From Porticoccaceae bacterium (lineage in GTDB: Bacteria > Pseudomonadota > Gammaproteobacteria > Pseudomonadales > Porticoccaceae), in contig JAFMBU010000002.1 in the NCBI GenBank assembly GCA_017858295.1, forward strand, positions 1 to 34,601: a stretch of DNA of 34,601 bases, given 5' to 3'. The position numbers were made by a program, and so were the translations under genes. The notes under the pieces were generated by a model that saw only the letters and a program-made list of their open reading frames with translations, ran no database searches and had not been told where the DNA came from. Every line of letters begins with the position of its first letter. Positions within the stretch are counted from its first letter, which is position 1. This document shows, in pieces, positions 13,762-28,454 of this stretch.

Positions 13762-14538
13762 TTAATTATTTTTCACAAATTCGTCAAAAGTGTCAGCAAC
13801 AGCTTGAGACATCCCCGATTTTACCTGGGCCTGTTTTACGGTTTTGGCGACCTCACGCATTTCCTCAGCCCGACGCTGACCATGTGTGGATACACGCTCA
13901 AACCAATAATCGACACGACCTTCACGCCATCCCATCTCAGGGAAACTGTCATCTAAGGACGCCTTTATTTCGTTTTCTACATCGTAAAAACGAGCGGTTT
14001 GAAAACACTCAAGGGTAAGAGCCTCCATGCCTTTTATCATTACTGATCGGCACATTTTTATCGCCGCCGCTCGCCCAACTTCAGGGCCAACATATCGACT
14101 GTTTAGGCCTAGTGAATTGAGTGCATGGCTGATCGCCTGACCCTCGGGGTGAGATAAAAAAAGCGGTACGGACCCTTTAAGGGGATAGACTGGCGCCATA
14201 ATCGCAACGTCAACAAGATTGCAACAGGCTTGAATATTTGCCTGTTTTGTTTGCGGCGCTACAGAGTTCATCTCCAAAAAATATTGCTCTGGTCGCAAAT
14301 GCACACCAGCCTCCCTTGCCGCTATAGGTGCCTGATCTGCGGTAACAAGAGAGAATACAAATGCAGAATCCCGCAAGGCGTCAGCAAGATTGGCCTGGAA
14401 CTGAACACCAGACTGCTCTGCTTGGGCTTTTATTTCAGCATCTTGTTTTATATCGTAGACATGGACATCAGCATGACTCTGCAAATGCTCTGCGAACATC
14501 TTCCCCGCTTCACCAAAGCCGATTATCGCAACCTTCAC
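13762..14538 (-). CDS. NAD(P)-binding 6-phosphogluconate-dehydrogenase-like protein with C-terminal DUF1932
   Basis: MKVAIIGFGEAGKMFAEHLQSHADVHVYD Rossmann motif; C-terminal GREAAAIKMCRSVMIKGMEAL-like segment (GRAAAIKMCRSVMIKGMEALTLECFQTA) matches the DUF1932 type. Confidence 0.78.
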   Translation of the reverse strand: MKVAIIGFGEAGKMFAEHLQSHADVHVYDIKQDAEIKAQAEQSGVQFQANLADALRDSAFVFSLVTADQAPIAAREAGVHLRPEQYFLEMNSVAPQTKQANIQACCNLVDVAIMAPVYPLKGSVPLFLSHPEGQAISHALNSLGLNSRYVGPEVGRAAAIKMCRSVMIKGMEALTLECFQTARFYDVENEIKASLDDSFPEMGWREGRVDYWFERVSTHGQRRAEEMREVAKTVKQAQVKSGMSQAVADTFDEFVKNN

Positions 14539-15620
14539 GGAAAGACCTCTCCATCCATGATTTTTCGGGCTGTACGTAAAAGAGCTGTACGCACAACAGT
14601 GCTGTCATCCCACTCCAATTCAACCGTCAGCATCCCTGTGGGGTGTTCAACATCTACCTGGCAAGGATTGGTTTTTGCAAAAATGGCCATACCCGCCGCT
14701 ACACTGTTGGGTAACATGCAGCCTGCCGCTGACGAGGCCGCACCCAGCACACCAACGGATAGGTGGACGCGATGAGGAATAAATGTGCGCGTCGAAATAA
14801 TGCCTCCGTTTATCGGCGGCGCTATCAGGCACATCTTAGGAATGGTCTTATCTGTAACATCGCCTAAGTTCATCATCTGTCCCGCCTGAATGCGTATTGC
14901 TTCCAGACGTATTTTCAGCGCCTCATTAGCCTCTAAGACTTCAGGAGCTTCATAGCCACTCAACCCCAGATCTTTCGCACGTATCAGAACGCTTGGCATG
15001 CCATTATCAATTAGGGTGCAATCGACATCATCAATCGTATCGATCGCATTACCTGTGGGTAGCAACGCACCGCATTGCGCTCCGGCGGTGCCGTAATAGC
15101 GCTGCAAAATAGGCGCATGGGATCCGGGTACCCCATCAATCTTGGCGTCACCCTCATAGGTCACTTTGCCATCGGGGGTTTGGACAACCAACTCTGCGTA
15201 GGCATCGGAATTAACCATATGAACACGCACGACTGTCTGCTTCGTTTCTGCCGCAACGAGGCCACGCTCTATGGCAAATGGACCAACGGCGGCGAGCATA
15301 TTTCCACAATTTTGTGCGGCTGAAATCGCACCAGTTTCGGGTGTTACCTGCAAGAATAAATAGTCTACGTCCACTTCAGGCCGCTCAGAGGACGATACGA
15401 TGGCGACTTTGCTGGTAAGCGGATGGGCGCCACCTAGACCGTCGATTTGACGGGCATCAGGTGAACCCATCATCCTTAGAAGAGCTTGGTTTCGAGCGCC
15501 TTCCTCGGAGGGCAAATCCTGGGCAATAAAAAATGGTCCTTTGGATGTGCCACCGCGCATTAGCATGCAAGGGATGCCGATCGTGCTACTGGTTGTTGTA
15601 TTGGTCATTCTATTGTTCAT
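14535..15620 (-). CDS. ligU: 4-oxalomesaconate tautomerase (PrpF/AcnD-accessory-fold family)
   Basis: GIPCMLMRGGTSKGPFFIAQDLP, GLGGAHPLTSKVAIVSSS, CGNMLAAVGPFAIE: PrpF family. Function supported by position between ligI and the rest of the 4,5-cleavage pathway. Start chosen at the ATG at 15620; an in-frame ATG at 15608 is also possible. Confidence 0.83.
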   Translation of the reverse strand: MNNRMTNTTTSSTIGIPCMLMRGGTSKGPFFIAQDLPSEEGARNQALLRMMGSPDARQIDGLGGAHPLTSKVAIVSSSERPEVDVDYLFLQVTPETGAISAAQNCGNMLAAVGPFAIERGLVAAETKQTVVRVHMVNSDAYAELVVQTPDGKVTYEGDAKIDGVPGSHAPILQRYYGTAGAQCGALLPTGNAIDTIDDVDCTLIDNGMPSVLIRAKDLGLSGYEAPEVLEANEALKIRLEAIRIQAGQMMNLGDVTDKTIPKMCLIAPPINGGIISTRTFIPHRVHLSVGVLGAASSAAGCMLPNSVAAGMAIFAKTNPCQVDVEHPTGMLTVELEWDDSTVVRTALLRTARKIMDGEVFP

Positions 15621-15625
15621 GGTTA

Positions 15626-16522
15626 CTAGTCCGACCAATACAAAGACATAGGATTATCGACCAATAATTTGCGCTGTAACTCGACGGTCGGTGCGATACG
15701 TGGGATTTGATCCACAAGTTGGCCATCATCTGCAATGTGCGTTTTCATATTGGGATGTGGCCAGTCAGTGCCCCACAGCACACGATCGGGAAAGCGCTCG
15801 ACCAGTGTTCGAGCAAATGGCGTCACATCATCGTAGGGTGGTCCAGTGGCCGACAAGCGTTCGGGACAGGATACTTTGACCCAAAAATTTGAATTGTCAT
15901 CCAACAATTTCACGAAACGTAGGAATTGCCCATGGGTTGAGCCCAAGCTAATATCCGGACGTCCCATGTGGTCAATAACGACAAGTGTCGGTATTTTCTC
16001 GAGAAAGGGCGCAATGTCGTCAAGTTCCTCAGCTTCGAAATAAACCACCACATGCCAACCCATACTGGCAACCCGCTCGGCAATTTTGAGATACTCAGAT
16101 TTTGGCGTTGGATCCACGAGGCGTTTCAAAAAGTTAAATCGCACTCCCCTCACCCCGGCAGCGTGAAGTTCTTGTAGCTCCTTATCCGTTATCGCCGGAT
16201 CAACAATGGCTACACCTCTGGCCTTGCCGTTTGACTGATTCAGGCAATCGACCATAGCAGCGTTATCCTTACCGTGACAGCTAGCTTGGACTAAGACGTT
16301 TTTGTCAAATCCAAGATGATCACGAAGTGCAAATAACTTGGCAGCAGGTGCATCATGGGGGGTATATTTCCGAATCGGGGAATAGGGAAATTTATCCGAC
16401 GAACCAAAGACATGGCAGTGAGCGTCTACCGCGCCGGGAGGTGGACTAAAATCTGGTTTTTTAGGGTTCGGATGCACATCGAGTGCACCTGGCGTCGGTG
16501 GCTGAGCTTGCAGATTAGACAT
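15626..16522 (-). CDS. ligI: 2-pyrone-4,6-dicarboxylate hydrolase
   Basis: [75 protein letters not shown]: amidohydrolase-superfamily PDC lactonase signature. Confidence 0.92.
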
Positions 16523-17198
16523 TGATATATTTCAACCCTTTTTCTTTGAGTCGCTCACGCATTCCATAAACATCTAAACCGAGCTCGCCAGCGGCAAATT
16601 TAGCTCGATTGCGTGCTTCTTTATCCTCTCGAGCGCGCGCATTGATCAGTACGTCTGGCGCCGTTTCCCGCGGTACCACACAGACACCATCATCATCTGC
16701 GACAATTACATCACCAGGCTTGATTGCCTGTCCTGCGCAGATGATTGGTATGTTTATTGAACCGAGACTCTCTTTGACGGTGCCTGTGCCTTGGACATAT
16801 TTTGACCATACTGGGAAGTCCATTTCCTGCAATTCGGCTAGATCACGCACACCACCTTCAATGATAAGCCCGCGCACGCCGCGATATTTCAACGCTGTGG
16901 CAAACAGATCGCCAAAATATCCCGCATCAGACTCCGAAGTCGGCGAAATAACCAAAATATCGCCTTCTTGGCACTGCTCAACCACTACGTGAATCATCCA
17001 GTTATCGGCGGGCGGAATAGAGACTGTCACCGCATTACCTGCGATGCGAGCGCCCGGGTAAATAGGCCGCATATAAGGCTTCATACAGCCGGTTCTACCC
17101 TGCGCTTCTGAAACGGTAGAGACCCCACAAACACCTAGACCGTTGACAACCTCCAGATCGACACGGTCAATATTTTGCACAACAACATGTTCAGCCAT
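16515..17198 (-). CDS. ligK: 4-carboxy-4-hydroxy-2-oxoadipate aldolase/oxaloacetate decarboxylase (RraA-like fold)
   Basis: [75 protein letters not shown]. Start placed at the ATG at 17198 ([14 protein letters not shown]). Confidence 0.9.
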
Positions 17199-17276
17199 TA
17201 AGAAAATCCTAGAAGTATCAAAAGCTGCAGTATTATTTCTTGAAGGCGACAATTCCACATTGAAGTCAGCTGAACG

Positions 17277-17289
17277 TATAAGAAAATAC
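17277..17289 (+). promoter_or_regulatory. Candidate LysR-type regulator box upstream of ligK (TATAAGAAAATAC)
   Basis: Matches TATAAGAAAATGC on the minus strand at 18462-18474 upstream of ligJ in 12 of 13 positions. It lies 79 nt from the ligK start. Confidence 0.45.
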
Positions 17290-17297
17290 GAATTTAA

Positions 17298-18449
17298 TTA
17301 GCTAACAGACTCCAGAATCTCAATAAAACTCTCATGGGAGCTAGTGGGTCGCCAGTCCTGCCTGTATGTCACGCCAATCTTGCGATTCATTAACGGAGGA
17401 AGGGAGCACAGAACCGATAACCATCCGGCCTCCAGTTCGACGGCCACCTGGTCTGGTGACAAAATGGTTAAGCAATCGGTTCTCAGTAGAATTTGACGGT
17501 TTACGATTACCGATCCGCACTCCACAGAAATACGCGGCACCGGGAGACCTTCCGCAGTGAACAATGCCTCCCATTTCTCGCGCAGAGGGGAGTTAGAATG
17601 GGGCACGCACCATGGAAATTCAGCCAGTTCTCTGACTGTCGCCTGCGCCGCTTCGAGTCTGTCAAATAACGGGTGCCCCGTCCTGGCGACAACAACCGGT
17701 GCGTCTTCAAAGAGCGGAGTATGGACTAGGCCTGGGTCAGAGCCATGTTCCCTCAGGGCTCCGATCATAAAGTCCAGCTGACCACTCAATAGCGGCTCTA
17801 TAAGCTCGGTGAATGAACCCTCAGAAATACGTATATCAACGTTGGGATGGGATGCTTGAAATTCAACCACAGCTGCAGGTAACACTCGAGCGCGGCACAG
17901 GGGCATAGCGCCGATCACAATTGACCCAGAAGCTATACCTTTGAGCGCCATGAGATCATTGATCATATAACGCAATTCAGCCCCCGCAAGACTAAATCGA
18001 CGAGCTTGGGTCTGTCCAAAATCGGTCAAGGCAAGCCCGCGGCCTTTGCGGCGTGTCAGATCCTGTTTAAGGAAAATTTCGAGATCGCGAATAGCGCGGT
18101 GTAACGAGGCCGAAGATAGCCCGGTGCTATTGGATGCCTCGGCGAAATTTCCACACTGCGCTAGAGCGAGAAAGGCTTTTATCTGTGTATGAGTAACGTT
18201 TTTACGGCCAATATAGTTAAGCGTCTCAACAATCCGTGGGTAGATAAGCTTTGCCGCGTCAGTTGGAACCAAGCCTCCGCTCTGGCGATCGAATAGAGCA
18301 AAGTCCAATTGATCTTCAAGTTTTGCAATAGCCTGCGTGACAGCGGGCTGTGAAAGATTAACTGCCCGTGCAGCTGCGGTTGACGTTCCCATCTCTACTG
18401 TCTTCAGGAATGCCCGCAAATGCCTGATGTTAAATCGCCATATATCCAT
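17298..18449 (-). CDS. LysR-type transcriptional regulator with two tandem N-terminal HTH domains; candidate PCA-pathway regulator
   Basis: 383 aa. First HTH: FNIRHLRAFLKTVEMGTSTAAARAVNLSQPAVTQAIAKLEDQLDFALFDR. Second HTH-like block: THTQIKAFLALAQCGNFAEASNSTGLSSASLHRAIRDLEIFLKQDLTRR. Then a LysR substrate-binding domain. Confidence 0.85.
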   Translation of the reverse strand: MDIWRFNIRHLRAFLKTVEMGTSTAAARAVNLSQPAVTQAIAKLEDQLDFALFDRQSGGLVPTDAAKLIYPRIVETLNYIGRKNVTHTQIKAFLALAQCGNFAEASNSTGLSSASLHRAIRDLEIFLKQDLTRRKGRGLALTDFGQTQARRFSLAGAELRYMINDLMALKGIASGSIVIGAMPLCRARVLPAAVVEFQASHPNVDIRISEGSFTELIEPLLSGQLDFMIGALREHGSDPGLVHTPLFEDAPVVVARTGHPLFDRLEAAQATVRELAEFPWCVPHSNSPLREKWEALFTAEGLPVPRISVECGSVIVNRQILLRTDCLTILSPDQVAVELEAGWLSVLCSLPPLMNRKIGVTYRQDWRPTSSHESFIEILESVS

Positions 18450-18461
18450 TTCTTAATATTA

Positions 18462-18481
18462 GCATTTTCTTATAGAAGAAA
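18462..18481. promoter_or_regulatory. Candidate operator in the divergent regulator/ligJ intergenic region
   Basis: Contains GCATTTTCTTATA (shared with the ligK upstream region) overlapping the perfect inverted repeat TTTCTT-ATAG-AAGAAA at 18466-18481. Confidence 0.5.
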
Positions 18482-18550
18482 TACACTACTAATGCGCCCT
18501 GCATTGATAATTTGGTTACACTGTTTGAAAACAATTTTAGGCATCTCACC

Positions 18551-19591
18551 ATGAGTCTCATCATCGACTGTCACGGACATCAAACCCTTGTTCCTCAAGC
18601 ACACCTTGATTTCAGAGCAGCTCAGCTCGCGCGCCTTGAAGACCCTTCAAAGCCGCGCCCTAGCCTGCCTGTCTATCCAGACTCGGAGCTCTATGAGATC
18701 ATCGCCAACAATCAGTACAGGTTACAGCAGGAACGTGGTGCGGATATTACAATCTTCTCACCGCGCGCTTCAGCTATGGAACCCCACATTGGCGATACTG
18801 AAACCTCTATCGACTGGGCCCAAGCCTGCAACAATATGATTAAACGAACAGTCGACCTTTTCCCCGATAATTTTGTCGGTGTCTGCCAGCTGCCCCAGCA
18901 AGTAAAAAACGATAAACCCGCCGGCCTCGAGGACGCGATTGAAGAACTTGAACGCTGTGTACTCGAACTCGGATTTATCGGCTGTAATCTCAACCCTGAC
19001 CCGTCTGGAGGACACTTTTCAGCGCCACCTTTAACCGATCGCTACTGGTATCCACTCTACGAAAAAATGGTCGAGCTCCGAGTACCAGCCATGATCCATG
19101 TGTCCGGCTCATGTAATGCGTGCCTCCATGCCACAGGTTCTTATTACATGGCCGCCGACACCAATGCCTTTATGAACCTAATTACAGGGGACTTGTTTGC
19201 CGACTTTCCTGAGCTGAATTTTGTGATACCCCACGGTGGAGGAGCCGTGCCATATCATTGGGGCCGATACCGCGGGCTAGCAGATATGTTGGGCAAGCCA
19301 ACCCTCGACAAACATCTGATGCAAAATGTCTACTTTGATACCTGCGTTTACCATCAACCGGGCATTGATCTGCTATGCGAAGTCATAGATCCAAAAAACA
19401 TTCTGTTTGCCTCTGAGATGATCGGCGCTGTCCGCTGTATTGATCCAGAAACAGGCTTCTATTTCGATGACACCAAACGGTATCTGGAAAATCTCGATCT
19501 TACAGCTGATGCTCGGCACGATATTTTCGAAGGTAACGCTCGCCGTATTTATCCGCGGCTTGACGAACTACTGAAAGGACGGGGCTTGTGA
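18551..19591 (+). CDS. ligJ: 4-oxalomesaconate hydratase
   Basis: MSLIIDCHGHQT, HVSGSCNACLHATGSYYMAADTNAFMNLI, FVIPHGGGAVPYHWGRYRG, ILFASEMIGAVRCIDPETG: LigJ-type amidohydrolase fold. Start moved to the ATG at 18551. Confidence 0.9.
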   Translation: MSLIIDCHGHQTLVPQAHLDFRAAQLARLEDPSKPRPSLPVYPDSELYEIIANNQYRLQQERGADITIFSPRASAMEPHIGDTETSIDWAQACNNMIKRTVDLFPDNFVGVCQLPQQVKNDKPAGLEDAIEELERCVLELGFIGCNLNPDPSGGHFSAPPLTDRYWYPLYEKMVELRVPAMIHVSGSCNACLHATGSYYMAADTNAFMNLITGDLFADFPELNFVIPHGGGAVPYHWGRYRGLADMLGKPTLDKHLMQNVYFDTCVYHQPGIDLLCEVIDPKNILFASEMIGAVRCIDPETGFYFDDTKRYLENLDLTADARHDIFEGNARRIYPRLDELLKGRGL

Positions 19592-20602
19592 CTTTTATAA
19601 GAAATCGCTGGTATATCGCAGCCTGGGACGGTGAGGTTGCCAACGCTCCTCTCTCCAGAAAGATCTGCGGTGAGACTATTGTGCTCTACCGAAAACTTAA
19701 TGGCAGTGTTGTGGCCTTGCGCGATGCCTGTCCCCATCGCCTGCTTCCTCTCTCCCTTGGCACTCGAGAGGGGGACAACCTCCGTTGTAAGTATCACGGC
19801 ATGCTGATCGGACCTGATGGCAGTCCAGAGGAAATGCCTTTGACAAATCAGCGGGTCAACAAACAAATCTGTACTCAAAGCTACAATGTGGTGGAAAAGT
19901 ACCGCTATATCTGGGTCTGGATTGGAGAGCAAGATAAGGCTGATCCAGAGATGGTTCCCGATTTCTGGCCCTGCGATAGCGAAGGCTGGGTCTTCGACGG
20001 TGGCTATTCGCATGTGCAGTGCGATTATCGCCTCTTTATCGATAATCTTATGGATCTTACCCATGAGACATACGTCCATGCTGGGTCTATTGGCCAGAAG
20101 GAGTTAATGGAAAGTCCGTTAGAAACCTCTGTAAATGGGAATAAAGTGACTCTTTCGAGATGGATACCGAATATATCGCCGCCACCCTTTTGGCGCGACG
20201 CGCTGCAAAAGGACACTCAAGTTGATCGCTGGCAAATCTGCGAATTCATCGAACCCTGTTCGGTCAATATAGACGTTGGTGTTTCGCCCATTGAGAATCT
20301 TGACTCGCTTGAGGAGCATAATTCCGGCGTACGAGGATTTGTTATCGATTCTATGACACCGGAAACCGAAGAGAGCTGTCACTACTTCTGGGGCATGGCA
20401 CGTAATTTCAGAATTGACGACCAAGGCCTGACACAGCGTATCCGAGCCGGACAAGCGGCAATTTTTCATGAAGATATAGAGATACTTGAGCGTCAACAGC
20501 AATCAATTGCCGATAATCCTGATATGGCCTTGAGGGTTCTTTCCATTGATTCCGGCGGCGCCCATGCCAGACGCAGTATTTCTAAATTGATGGAAATCGA
20601 AA

Positions 20603-20610
<8 letters not shown>
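19588..20610 (+). CDS. vanA: Vanillate O-demethylase-like Rieske oxygenase subunit
   Basis: GTG start overlapping the ligJ stop (GTGA). Rieske motif CPHRLLPLSLGTREGDNLRCKYHG; CDYRLFIDNLMDLTHETYVHAGSIGQKEL, PPFWRDAL, VDRWQICEF, YFWGMARNF, LERQQQS: strongly VanA-like from memory of the family. Confidence 0.83.
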
Positions 20611-22795
<2,185 letters not shown>

Positions 22796-24844: not shown

Positions 24845-27361
24845 CTAAAAGCTAGCCATAAACCTAACACCGTAAGTGCGCGGCGGGGAGAAAATAGCAT
24901 AAGCCAATCCGCGGTTTGAGACATTGGTATTGACACTAAATCGCTCGTCAGTCGCATTTCTCACGAAGGCCGAAACAGACCAATCTTCATCACCTGAGTA
25001 GAGCGTTGCATCAAGGTTCAACGTCGTATACGAATCCGACTTAGTATCTTCGAGTAGCAGGAAGTTGGTTTGCTGCTCTGATCTATGGGAAACCATTGCT
25101 GTCAGAGACACCTGATGATTTGCCAAGTCGATGACGTGATTTACATTTAAATCCGCACCAATTTCAGGAGAATACAGCATGTCGCTTCCCGAGCAATCAT
25201 AGCTCTCGACACCATCACTAACACCATTAGATGAACAGCCAAATCGACCCTTGCCCGGATCTGAAATCAGCGCCAGCTTGTCATAAGAGGCTTCCAGATA
25301 CTGCACATTTAAGCCGAATGTTGTACTACCTGTCGCCGCCCAAATAACATCAAGATCCAGACCTTGAATGGTTGCATCGGCATTCGCAATTGGGAAAGCT
25401 GAAGCACCCTCTAGGGTAGTAAAGTACGTTACCTGCTGGCCATCATATTTCCATAGGAACAGCTCGGCGTTGACTTGCAAAGTGTTATCCATAAAGCGGT
25501 TCTTAGAACCTATCGTGATCGCATCGATAAACTCTGAATCATAGGTTGACGCCGGCCCAACTGCAAGATCGACACCACCAGCGCGGTAGCCTGTTTCAAA
25601 GGTGGCGAATAGAAGGTTGCTTTCAGCCCAATCCCATTCGGCGCCGAGTCTATAGGTCGTCTCGCTGTAGCTAAGATCGGCCGCTAACTCGCCATCACCC
25701 ACATTCACAATTGCACCAAGAATCGGCTCTGGATTACGTCCCGGAGTGGGAGGAACGCCGCCTGGTAAATTAAAGTTGTAGACTGGAGGGCGACCCCTAC
25801 CCGGAATATCCGCTACAGAATCTGCAGCGATCAACCCTTCATCGACAAAATATTGAATAAACGCATCGCGATCACTGGTCACCGGTTGCGCAGGCATTGC
25901 GCCAGAGGCACAGCCATTGGCAAAGCTATTGAATGGTGGTGGCCCAGGAGTCAAGAAGTTACCCGTAAACGGCGCACCGCCACAGAAGGTGACAAATGTA
26001 TCACTGATACCGTCAACAAATTTACTGTCTTCTGTGTAGCGAACACCAGCGTTCAAACGAAAGGTTTCGGAAAGGTCAAATGTGCCCTGCGCAAAGACCG
26101 CCCAACTATCGCCGCCGTTGTCATAATTCTGTATCGGAGATGCGTAGTTTTGAGCGAATACGGTACTGGTACTAATTTCTTCTTCGACATGAAAGGCACC
26201 AAGTATACCGTTTAAAGGACCATCCAAGTCAGTCGCAAAGCGGAGCTCAAACGACGTCTGATTATTTTCTTCGGCAGTTTTTGCGGGAGCAAATCCTGGG
26301 CCAGAAAACTGGTAATCCTGCTCTGATTCGCGGTATGCAGGGATAAACGTTAGCGTACCAACATCAGTCTGATAATTAATTTCAGCTGAGAAACCCGTCC
26401 AGCTGATATCTTGATACAGGTCCTCCCCATCTATAGGCTGAAAAGGCGCAAATGAAGGGGTGTGTAATACGCCCTCTCGAATGGCGTTGGCGCCTGCATC
26501 TGTAGGACCACTATCAATCGGCAGACCTGTTGGTGTGAATTCAGAAAGTGATCCAGTATCGTTGCTGTAGGTTCCATACAAATCACCACCGGCACCCTTG
26601 CCACTCACTTCAGAATGATCTACAGCTAGTCGGATAGAAAGTTTGTCGCTGGCATTAAATAACAGCTGTCCGCGTAAACCAAACGAGTCCTGATCATTGG
26701 TTCCATCATCTGAGAAGCCATCGCGCTCCAGCTTATTGCCAGAAATACGAATCGCAACATCGTCTGAAACAGCAATATTGGCTGCGCCCTGCAGGCCTAA
26801 TTTAGAGTAGTTACCAACTTCGGCTTGCATGTATCCTGAATTCTCACCCAGAACCGGCTTATTTGGAATGTAATTAACAACACCACCAGTGGCGTTACGG
26901 CCGTAGAGAGTACCCTGGGGGCCCTTAAGTAATTCGACACGCTCAAGGTCAAATAAAGCCTGGCCTGCAGCACCACTCGAGCGACCTAGATAGACACCAT
27001 CAACGTTCTGAGCGATAGCCGAGTCGGTCAATGGATTGACCGTTAGAGCACCAACACCCCGAACAAAGAAGCTTGCCAATGGACCGCCACCTGCGCTGAT
27101 CCCCAAGGCGGGAGAGAGTAAGCCAAGATCAGTTGCGGACTCGATTCCCGACTGAGTGAGCGTATCCGTATCAAAGCTTTGTACCGCTAGTGCGGCATCC
27201 TGAAGCGACTGTGCTCGGCGCTGAGCTGTTACAATAACTTCCTCAATGCCCGCATTCTCGTTAGCTTTGGGCTCAGCGGCGGACTGCGCAGATGCAGTCG
27301 AAACAGCGAGCGCCAAACTAAGAATGGTCGCGCTTGTTGTACATAGTGCTACCTTATTCAT
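24845..27361 (-). CDS. TonB-dependent outer membrane receptor
   Basis: 838 aa; signal peptide; IEEVIVTAQRRAQSLQDAALAVQSF TonB-box/plug start; plug domain DGVYLGRSSGAAGQALFDLERVELLKGPQGTLYGRNATGGVVNYI; C-terminal aromatic end (RTYGVRFMASF). Confidence 0.95.
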   Translation of the reverse strand: MNKVALCTTSATILSLALAVSTASAQSAAEPKANENAGIEEVIVTAQRRAQSLQDAALAVQSFDTDTLTQSGIESATDLGLLSPALGISAGGGPLASFFVRGVGALTVNPLTDSAIAQNVDGVYLGRSSGAAGQALFDLERVELLKGPQGTLYGRNATGGVVNYIPNKPVLGENSGYMQAEVGNYSKLGLQGAANIAVSDDVAIRISGNKLERDGFSDDGTNDQDSFGLRGQLLFNASDKLSIRLAVDHSEVSGKGAGGDLYGTYSNDTGSLSEFTPTGLPIDSGPTDAGANAIREGVLHTPSFAPFQPIDGEDLYQDISWTGFSAEINYQTDVGTLTFIPAYRESEQDYQFSGPGFAPAKTAEENNQTSFELRFATDLDGPLNGILGAFHVEEEISTSTVFAQNYASPIQNYDNGGDSWAVFAQGTFDLSETFRLNAGVRYTEDSKFVDGISDTFVTFCGGAPFTGNFLTPGPPPFNSFANGCASGAMPAQPVTSDRDAFIQYFVDEGLIAADSVADIPGRGRPPVYNFNLPGGVPPTPGRNPEPILGAIVNVGDGELAADLSYSETTYRLGAEWDWAESNLLFATFETGYRAGGVDLAVGPASTYDSEFIDAITIGSKNRFMDNTLQVNAELFLWKYDGQQVTYFTTLEGASAFPIANADATIQGLDLDVIWAATGSTTFGLNVQYLEASYDKLALISDPGKGRFGCSSNGVSDGVESYDCSGSDMLYSPEIGADLNVNHVIDLANHQVSLTAMVSHRSEQQTNFLLLEDTKSDSYTTLNLDATLYSGDEDWSVSAFVRNATDERFSVNTNVSNRGLAYAIFSPPRTYGVRFMASF

Positions 27362-27533: not shown

Positions 27534-28454
27534 ATGCGCTTTAAAGGTTTAGATCTAAATTTGCTTTTGGCACTTGATGTTTTGCTGGACGAGAAAAGCG
27601 TCTCGCGATCCGCCGAGAGACTGCATTTAAGCCAGCCCGCTATGAGCGCGGCTCTCAGACGGCTGCGTGAATACTTTAACGATCCCATCCTCAAGCAGCA
27701 CGGCAAGCGAATGGTCTCGACACCTCACGCACTTATTATTCACCAAGAATTAAAAGTCGTGCTTGCCAGCGTGGAAGCGTTGATCTCCAAAACCGCATTT
27801 TTTGACCCTGCAACCACATCGCGTAAATTTACTATCACTGCATCCGACTATCTGGCCCAGGTCATTTTTGTCCCCCTAATTAGGAATTTGCGAAACCTAG
27901 CGCCTAATATACAGCTGGAAATCGTGCCCCCTGCGGATTCAACTCATGAGTTGTTGTCACAGGGCAGTATCGATTTGGTGATACTACCCGAACAAATGAT
28001 CTCTGATGAATTTCCTTCAGAGCTTCTCTTCGAAGATCGGTTCGTGATCGTAGGCTGCCAATCAAACCCAGTTTTCCAGCAGGCTATGACAGAGGAAGCT
28101 TTCTATACTTCAGGACATGTGGTCGTAAAGCTTGGCAACCGCCGCCCCATTTCAGTGTCCGACCAGCAACTCGAAGCGCGCAAGAAATCCAGAGATACGG
28201 ACATCTTAATCAGCTCATTCCTTCTGGCCCCTGAAATGGTCGTTGGAACAGATAGGCTGACGGTAATGCATGAACGTTTGGCTAATATTTTCGCTACGCG
28301 AGTTCCTATAGTCACAGCACCATTGCCATTTAGCTTTCCCTCCATAAAAGAACACGTGCAAGTCCATAGCGCCCGCTCTAACGACCCAGGCATTCAATAT
28401 ATTCTGCAGAAAATCAAAGAAGCAGCTATCACTAAAACAAATCCAAATACATAA
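27534..28454 (+). CDS. LysR-family transcriptional regulator (NodD-like subgroup)
   Basis: LDLNLLLALDVLLDEKSVSRSAERLHLSQPAMSAALRRLREYFNDPIL HTH followed by a LysR substrate-binding domain. Confidence 0.9.
   Translation: MRFKGLDLNLLLALDVLLDEKSVSRSAERLHLSQPAMSAALRRLREYFNDPILKQHGKRMVSTPHALIIHQELKVVLASVEALISKTAFFDPATTSRKFTITASDYLAQVIFVPLIRNLRNLAPNIQLEIVPPADSTHELLSQGSIDLVILPEQMISDEFPSELLFEDRFVIVGCQSNPVFQQAMTEEAFYTSGHVVVKLGNRRPISVSDQQLEARKKSRDTDILISSFLLAPEMVVGTDRLTVMHERLANIFATRVPIVTAPLPFSFPSIKEHVQVHSARSNDPGIQYILQKIKEAAITKTNPNT

Follow-up and report, generated by a model that had tools for sequence, protein, structure and literature searches.

The window, a stretch of 34,601 nucleotides from a Porticoccaceae bacterium, carries a LysR-type regulator gene, ligR, between two gene arms headed by ligK and ligJ, and raises the question of whether the encoded protein controls both arms through one shared operator. 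An earlier note on this DNA had proposed as much from two 13-mers, GCATTTTCTTATA upstream of ligJ (18462–18474, plus strand) and GTATTTTCTTATA upstream of ligK (17277–17289, minus strand). Both are present at these positions and strands and differ at 1 of 13 positions. The distances of 77 and 79 nt given there refer to the same sites, counted to the A of the ATG; 76 nt lie between the 13-mer and the ATG at ligJ (ATG 18551) and 78 nt at ligK (ATG 17198, minus strand).

Genes of the Two Arms

ligR (17298–18449, minus strand) is flanked by the ligK arm on one side and a ligJ–ligA–ligB arm on the other, and ligK, ligU, ligA, and ligB all score above curated cut-offs. On the minus strand, ligK (16515–17198; NF006731, 356 bits; TIGR02798, 346 bits) is followed by a ligI-like amidohydrolase gene (15626–16522; PF04909) at the 2-pyrone-4,6-dicarboxylate hydrolase position, a kind of gene also found in sphingomonad clusters, by ligU, encoding 4-oxalomesaconate tautomerase (14535–15638; NF033377, 505.6 bits versus a cut-off of 440), and by genes for an oxidoreductase-like protein and an MFS transporter. 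The oxidoreductase-like gene (13762–14538) stands at the far end of the ligK arm, whereas in sphingomonads an oxidoreductase gene comes first in the ligJ arm.

On the plus strand, the first gene of the arm is ligJ (18551–19591; PF04909), which encodes 4-oxalomesaconate hydratase of the amidohydrolase family and was aligned to the annotated FldW in locus L042. It is followed by a Rieske/VanA_C oxygenase gene (19588–20610; PF19112, PF00355), ligA for the protocatechuate 4,5-dioxygenase alpha subunit (20603–21007; TIGR02792, 184 bits versus 108.6), ligB for the class III extradiol dioxygenase beta subunit (21009–21854; NF009903, 491.6 bits versus 317), and a ligC-like Gfo/Idh/MocA dehydrogenase gene (21851–22795; PF01408, PF19858) with a counterpart at the equivalent position in L043 and L044. 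A Rieske/VanA-type gene likewise lies between ligJ and ligA in some Sphingobium clusters; the corresponding space in strain MOLA455 (L004, 3338–3856) is too short for one. Further downstream in the window, a second LysR gene (27534–28454) lies beside a TonB-receptor-like gene (24845–27361), followed by further catabolic-type genes.

LigR and Its Tandem HTH Domains

LigR is a LysR-type regulator of 383 residues, with 44–51% identity to alphaproteobacterial LigR/FldY proteins, whose genes have neighbors of the same types on either side as here. By Pfam, it has the HTH_1 and LysR_substrate domains of a LigR-like LysR protein, with HTH_1 occurring twice (residues 8–66 and 88–146) before the substrate domain (residues 173–380). 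The two HTH_1 segments match the family separately, with 73 and 52 bits versus a cut-off of 26.6, as they also do in one sphingomonad LigR and in one relative from gammaproteobacteria. Among distant relatives, the first HTH is the best-kept part of the protein (49% versus 35–36% for the second HTH and the ligand domain). A single-sequence structure prediction of LigR gave a mean pLDDT of 46 and was set aside. Literature searches returned no account of LysR proteins with such a doubled HTH, a weak indication that none has been published.

The best-matching segment of LigR is 100% identical to a protein of the marine gammaproteobacterium HTCC2207, a member of the SAR92 clade; identity to the protein of MOLA455, listed under Porticoccaceae, is 85%. 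Among 50 genomes of the genus, high-identity LigR occurs in two besides the window's own. Another genome of the genus, G023, encodes a 37% relative adjoining a ligJ-like gene. In the tree, SAR92 LigR groups with alphaproteobacterial LigR (support 99/98) and not with this same-genus relative, a position that fits horizontal transfer.

Predicted LigR Boxes Upstream of ligJ and ligK

Four footprinted LigR sites, from Novosphingobium aromaticivorans and Sphingobium SYK-6, share a TT-N-GC-N6-TTAT box overlapping a T-N11-A core (PMC12710314). Its inner portion corresponds to the 13-mer. The element common to ligJ and ligK reaches 3 nt further upstream than the 13-mer (TTAGC.../TTCGT...), an extension missed in the earlier note.

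The predicted box of the ligJ arm, TTAGCATTTTCTTAT (18459–18473, plus strand), matches TT-N-GC-N6-TTAT exactly and is separated by 77 nt from the ligJ ATG and, on the opposite strand, by 9 nt from that of ligR. The predicted box of the ligK arm, TTCGTATTTTCTTAT (17278–17292, minus strand), sits just past the ligR stop codon and has a single mismatch, a T in place of the footprinted-consensus C; among 14 sphingomonad boxes that follow ligR, 4 have this T as well. The T-N11-A core is present at ligJ (T 18460, A 18472) and at the equivalent positions at ligK. The spacing of the boxes, measured here to start codons rather than to transcription start sites, is compatible with a LigR footprint at about −50 to −85, and DNase I footprints of N. 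aromaticivorans LigR lie at −51 to −85 (PMC12710314).

A weaker second shared element (ACTACTAATGCG / ACTTC-AATGTG), also overlooked previously, begins 26 nt downstream of the box start. The ligJ copy, ACTACTAATGCG (18485–18496, plus strand), corresponds in position to the sphingomonad GTTCCGATT block, which occupies +28 to +37; the ligK copy, ACTTCAATGTG (17256–17266, minus strand), lies downstream of the ligK box and is conserved in MOLA455, where it reads ACTTCAATCTG. Both copies are candidate activation half-sites.

Conservation and Search with an Independent Matrix

The box was examined at 34 non-redundant alphaproteobacterial loci, almost all from Sphingomonadaceae, in which ligK is divergent from ligR. 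It lies about 9–14 nt upstream of the ligR start, with no mismatch at 21 loci, one at 12, and two at 1, so that 33 of the 34 have at most one. In shuffled regions, the best match had no mismatch in 0.16% and one mismatch in 3.3%. Closer to the window, the ligJ box is conserved in HTCC2207, and MOLA455 keeps both sites, with an identical ligK box and one change in the ligJ box, while the flanking bases differ. The earlier proposal thus stands up in orthologous loci.

A weight matrix of 15 positions was built from 48 sphingomonad-type boxes, none of them from the window's lineage and the window itself excluded. Within the window, it ranked the site at 18459 (plus strand) first with 19.7 bits and that at 17292 (minus strand) second with 14.3 bits. 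With longer matrices, the ligJ site was still first, and the ligK site was second or fifth. On 800 kb of HTCC2207, the same matrix placed the ligJ site first and the ligK site fifth; the latter is not unique by score there, as three higher-scoring sites lie outside the cluster. Of the other HTCC2207 matches, considered as possible LigR targets, the one inspected for neighbors (748541) has unrelated genes beside it, and all were judged to be due to chance.

As to rarity, GYATTTTCTTATA has 2 exact copies in the whole genome of 1,930,143 bases, and these are the ligJ and ligK copies; the concern that the motif might be frequent elsewhere does not apply to the exact 13-mers. A search of the genome for extra LigR targets (16-mer, 2 mismatches) gave one site, on contig C183, no more than the reversed control. 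It lies beside acyl carrier/fatty acid genes and was also attributed to chance.

Inverted Layout and a Possible Wider Motif

In the SAR92 genomes (the window, HTCC2207, and MOLA455), ligR is divergent from ligJ in all three cases, and not from ligK as in N. aromaticivorans. The partner from which ligR diverges is a matter of layout and does not define the regulatory logic. In sphingomonads, where ligR is divergent from ligK, the box on the start side of ligR begins with TTAGC, and some loci have an end-side box with TTCGC/TTCGT or TTAGC; yet in the SAR92 genomes, too, the start-side box has TTAGC and the end-side box TTCGT. All 34 start-side boxes have A as their third base, and 7 of the 14 boxes on the end side have C. 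The simplest reading is that the box–ligR–box unit (17278–18473) has been turned round relative to the arms in comparison with the sphingomonad loci (L042–L085). To judge from this layout, the operators may move together with the regulator.

De novo motif sampling, applied to the DNA preceding 24 tandem-HTH LysR genes of more distant kinship (L009, L015–L041), revealed TATAKCAAAAAYNAATA upstream of the regulator gene, recognizable at about 22 of the 24 loci and in a register that fits the LigR box (TTAGCAAAAACTTATA). It reached 15.4 bits versus 8.0–8.5 in eight shuffled sets. Because the sampling used a single width and the set includes related sequences, TATAKCAAAAAYNAATA is a lead to a motif common to tandem-HTH LysR loci. 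Tentatively, and with somewhat less than even confidence, it can be suggested that these proteins form a large clade whose doubled domain reads a common asymmetric operator, TATAKCAAAAAYNAATA, with TTAGCAN4CTTATA as its LigR form, and that box–ligR–box is a cassette that can be reversed between the arms with control kept. How the doubled DNA-binding domains of a LysR protein read an asymmetric site is the question posed by the tandem HTH and the candidate clade-wide motif.

Alternative Explanations

The similarity between ligJ and ligK could simply be chance in AT-rich intergenic DNA. The core is T-rich and of low complexity, about 2.5 matches to the loose pattern TTNGYN6TTAT would be expected in the window, and dinucleotide shuffles of the 101-nt ligJ/ligR and 99-nt ligR/ligK intergenic regions produced a 12/13 match somewhere in 26 of 1500 cases; by itself, the pair of 13-mers is suggestive but not overwhelming. 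However, only 5 of the 1500 shuffles placed the match at equal gene distance (within 2 nt), and it is the comparative evidence that is decisive: the retention of the sites in MOLA455, the box across alphaproteobacteria, and the first and second ranks under the independent matrix contradict chance and make it extremely improbable. Another possibility is that the motif belongs to a promoter and is not an operator, with TATAAG on the opposite strand (18474–18469) serving as the −10 hexamer of ligR. It precedes the ligR start codon by about 20 nt, a plausible place, but the ligK copy, oriented alike, faces the end of ligR and would serve no purpose there as a promoter, and conservation also spans TTAGC, outside the hexamer, so this explanation is very unlikely in place of an operator. 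A ligR −10 overlapping the ligJ-side box may nevertheless hold in addition, giving autoregulation by overlap. Scoring of −10/−35 elements covered all six upstream sequences and gave no strong core promoter that recurred consistently, the candidates being weak and in no agreed place. The lack of a strong core promoter is usual for activator-dependent promoters.

The earlier note had also pointed to an inverted repeat, TTTCTT-ATAG-AAGAAA (18466–18481), overlapping the ligJ motif. It is perfect over 16 nt in the window, and an altered copy exists in HTCC2207 (TTTCTTATATAAGAAA), so that the conserved signal could be a symmetric operator, bound by LigR or by another repressor, with the ligK 13-mer as a half-site. 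MOLA455, however, keeps the box and has lost the repeat (TTTCCTTATATCAAAC), which speaks against the palindrome as the operator; no such repeat was found at ligK or at the sphingomonad boxes, and conservation tracks the asymmetric box. The repeat, although real, is judged incidental, and there is little likelihood that it is the signal.

Proposed Regulation by LigR

The two motifs are very probably LigR recognition sites through which LigR activates both arms with the pathway inducer, because they match, exactly or with one mismatch, the box of the four footprinted LigR sites, and because the box is conserved beside ligR in alphaproteobacteria, kept in MOLA455, and ranked in the top two places by an independent matrix. 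The same evidence, with the LigR/FldY type of the regulator and its place between the arms, supports the earlier proposal of a shared predicted operator for the intervening LysR protein, with the two arms as one regulon. Points against this assignment are the T of the ligK box in place of the consensus C, the score of the ligK site, which is not unique in 800 kb of HTCC2207, the weak −10/−35 candidates, and the identity of LigR to the alphaproteobacterial proteins, which is only about 44–51%.

We infer that LigR, encoded between the arms, binds TTNG(C/T)N6TTAT upstream of ligJ and ligK, probably without ligand. With inducer present, its contacts would extend to the downstream element and to RNA polymerase, and both arms would be activated. 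Judging from the literature on SYK-6 LigR and Pseudomonas putida GalR, protocatechuate, gallate, and 4-oxalomesaconate are the likely inducers: the footprint of SYK-6 LigR is altered by protocatechuate or gallate, as reported in PMC12710314, and 4-oxalomesaconate activates the Pseudomonas gallate regulator GalR (PMC9942251). LigR probably also represses its own gene, as suggested by the 9 nt between the ligJ-side box and the ligR start codon.

As judged from the DNA, the two motifs are almost certainly the LigR sites of a LigR/protocatechuate-4,5-cleavage regulon in SAR92-clade gammaproteobacteria, a new case of known biology. It would represent a complete two-armed LigR regulon with predicted operators in marine bacteria, an arrangement previously said to be mostly limited to Sphingomonadales, and would place a system known from lignin-degrading sphingomonads in aromatic-acid breakdown in a coastal marine bacterium. 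Findings beyond the literature consulted are the inverted box–ligR–box, the two LysR-type HTH domains in LigR, and TATAKCAAAAAYNAATA in related tandem-HTH loci. TTNGYN6TTAT may serve as a sequence code for predicting LigR targets from genomes without experiments.

Comparison with Known Systems

GalR of P. putida KT2440, like LigR here, is a LysR activator divergent from a 4-oxalomesaconate hydratase gene (galB) and has a T-N11-A core (PMC9942251). Its predicted RBS, accompanied by a predicted ABS motif, resembles CTATA-N9-TATAG, unlike the LigR box (PMC9942251). FldY, encoded on Sphingobium plasmids (AP027331 and others), is 47% identical to the window LigR and also has a tandem HTH. The neighbors of fldY are fldZ (ligK) and, at a greater distance, fldW (ligJ), and a vanA-like gene precedes the dioxygenase genes, as here; yet fldY is divergent from fldZ and not fldW, whereas ligR in the window is divergent from ligJ. 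No exact box was found downstream of fldY in the Sphingobium plasmid locus scanned. LigR of Sphingobium lignivorans SYK-6, as summarized from Kamimura 2010 (J Bacteriol 192:3394) in PMC12710314, recognizes sites at about −48 to −80, upstream of both ligK and ligJ, and the boxes in the window lie upstream of the same genes.

A further likeness is to N. aromaticivorans DSM 12444, in which a LysR gene also lies between ligK–ligU–ligI and ligJ–ligA–ligB–ligC arms, with one TT-N-GC-N6-TTAT box upstream of each arm, one of them adjoining the ligR start codon (PMC12710314). There, LigR binds two sites flanking ligR and activates exactly the two flanking arms (PMC12710314). The layout differs: in N. 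aromaticivorans, ligR is divergent from ligK, and SARO_RS14280 precedes ligJ in the second arm, whereas in the window ligR is divergent from ligJ, ligJ heads its arm, and the oxidoreductase gene (13762–14538) belongs to the ligK arm.
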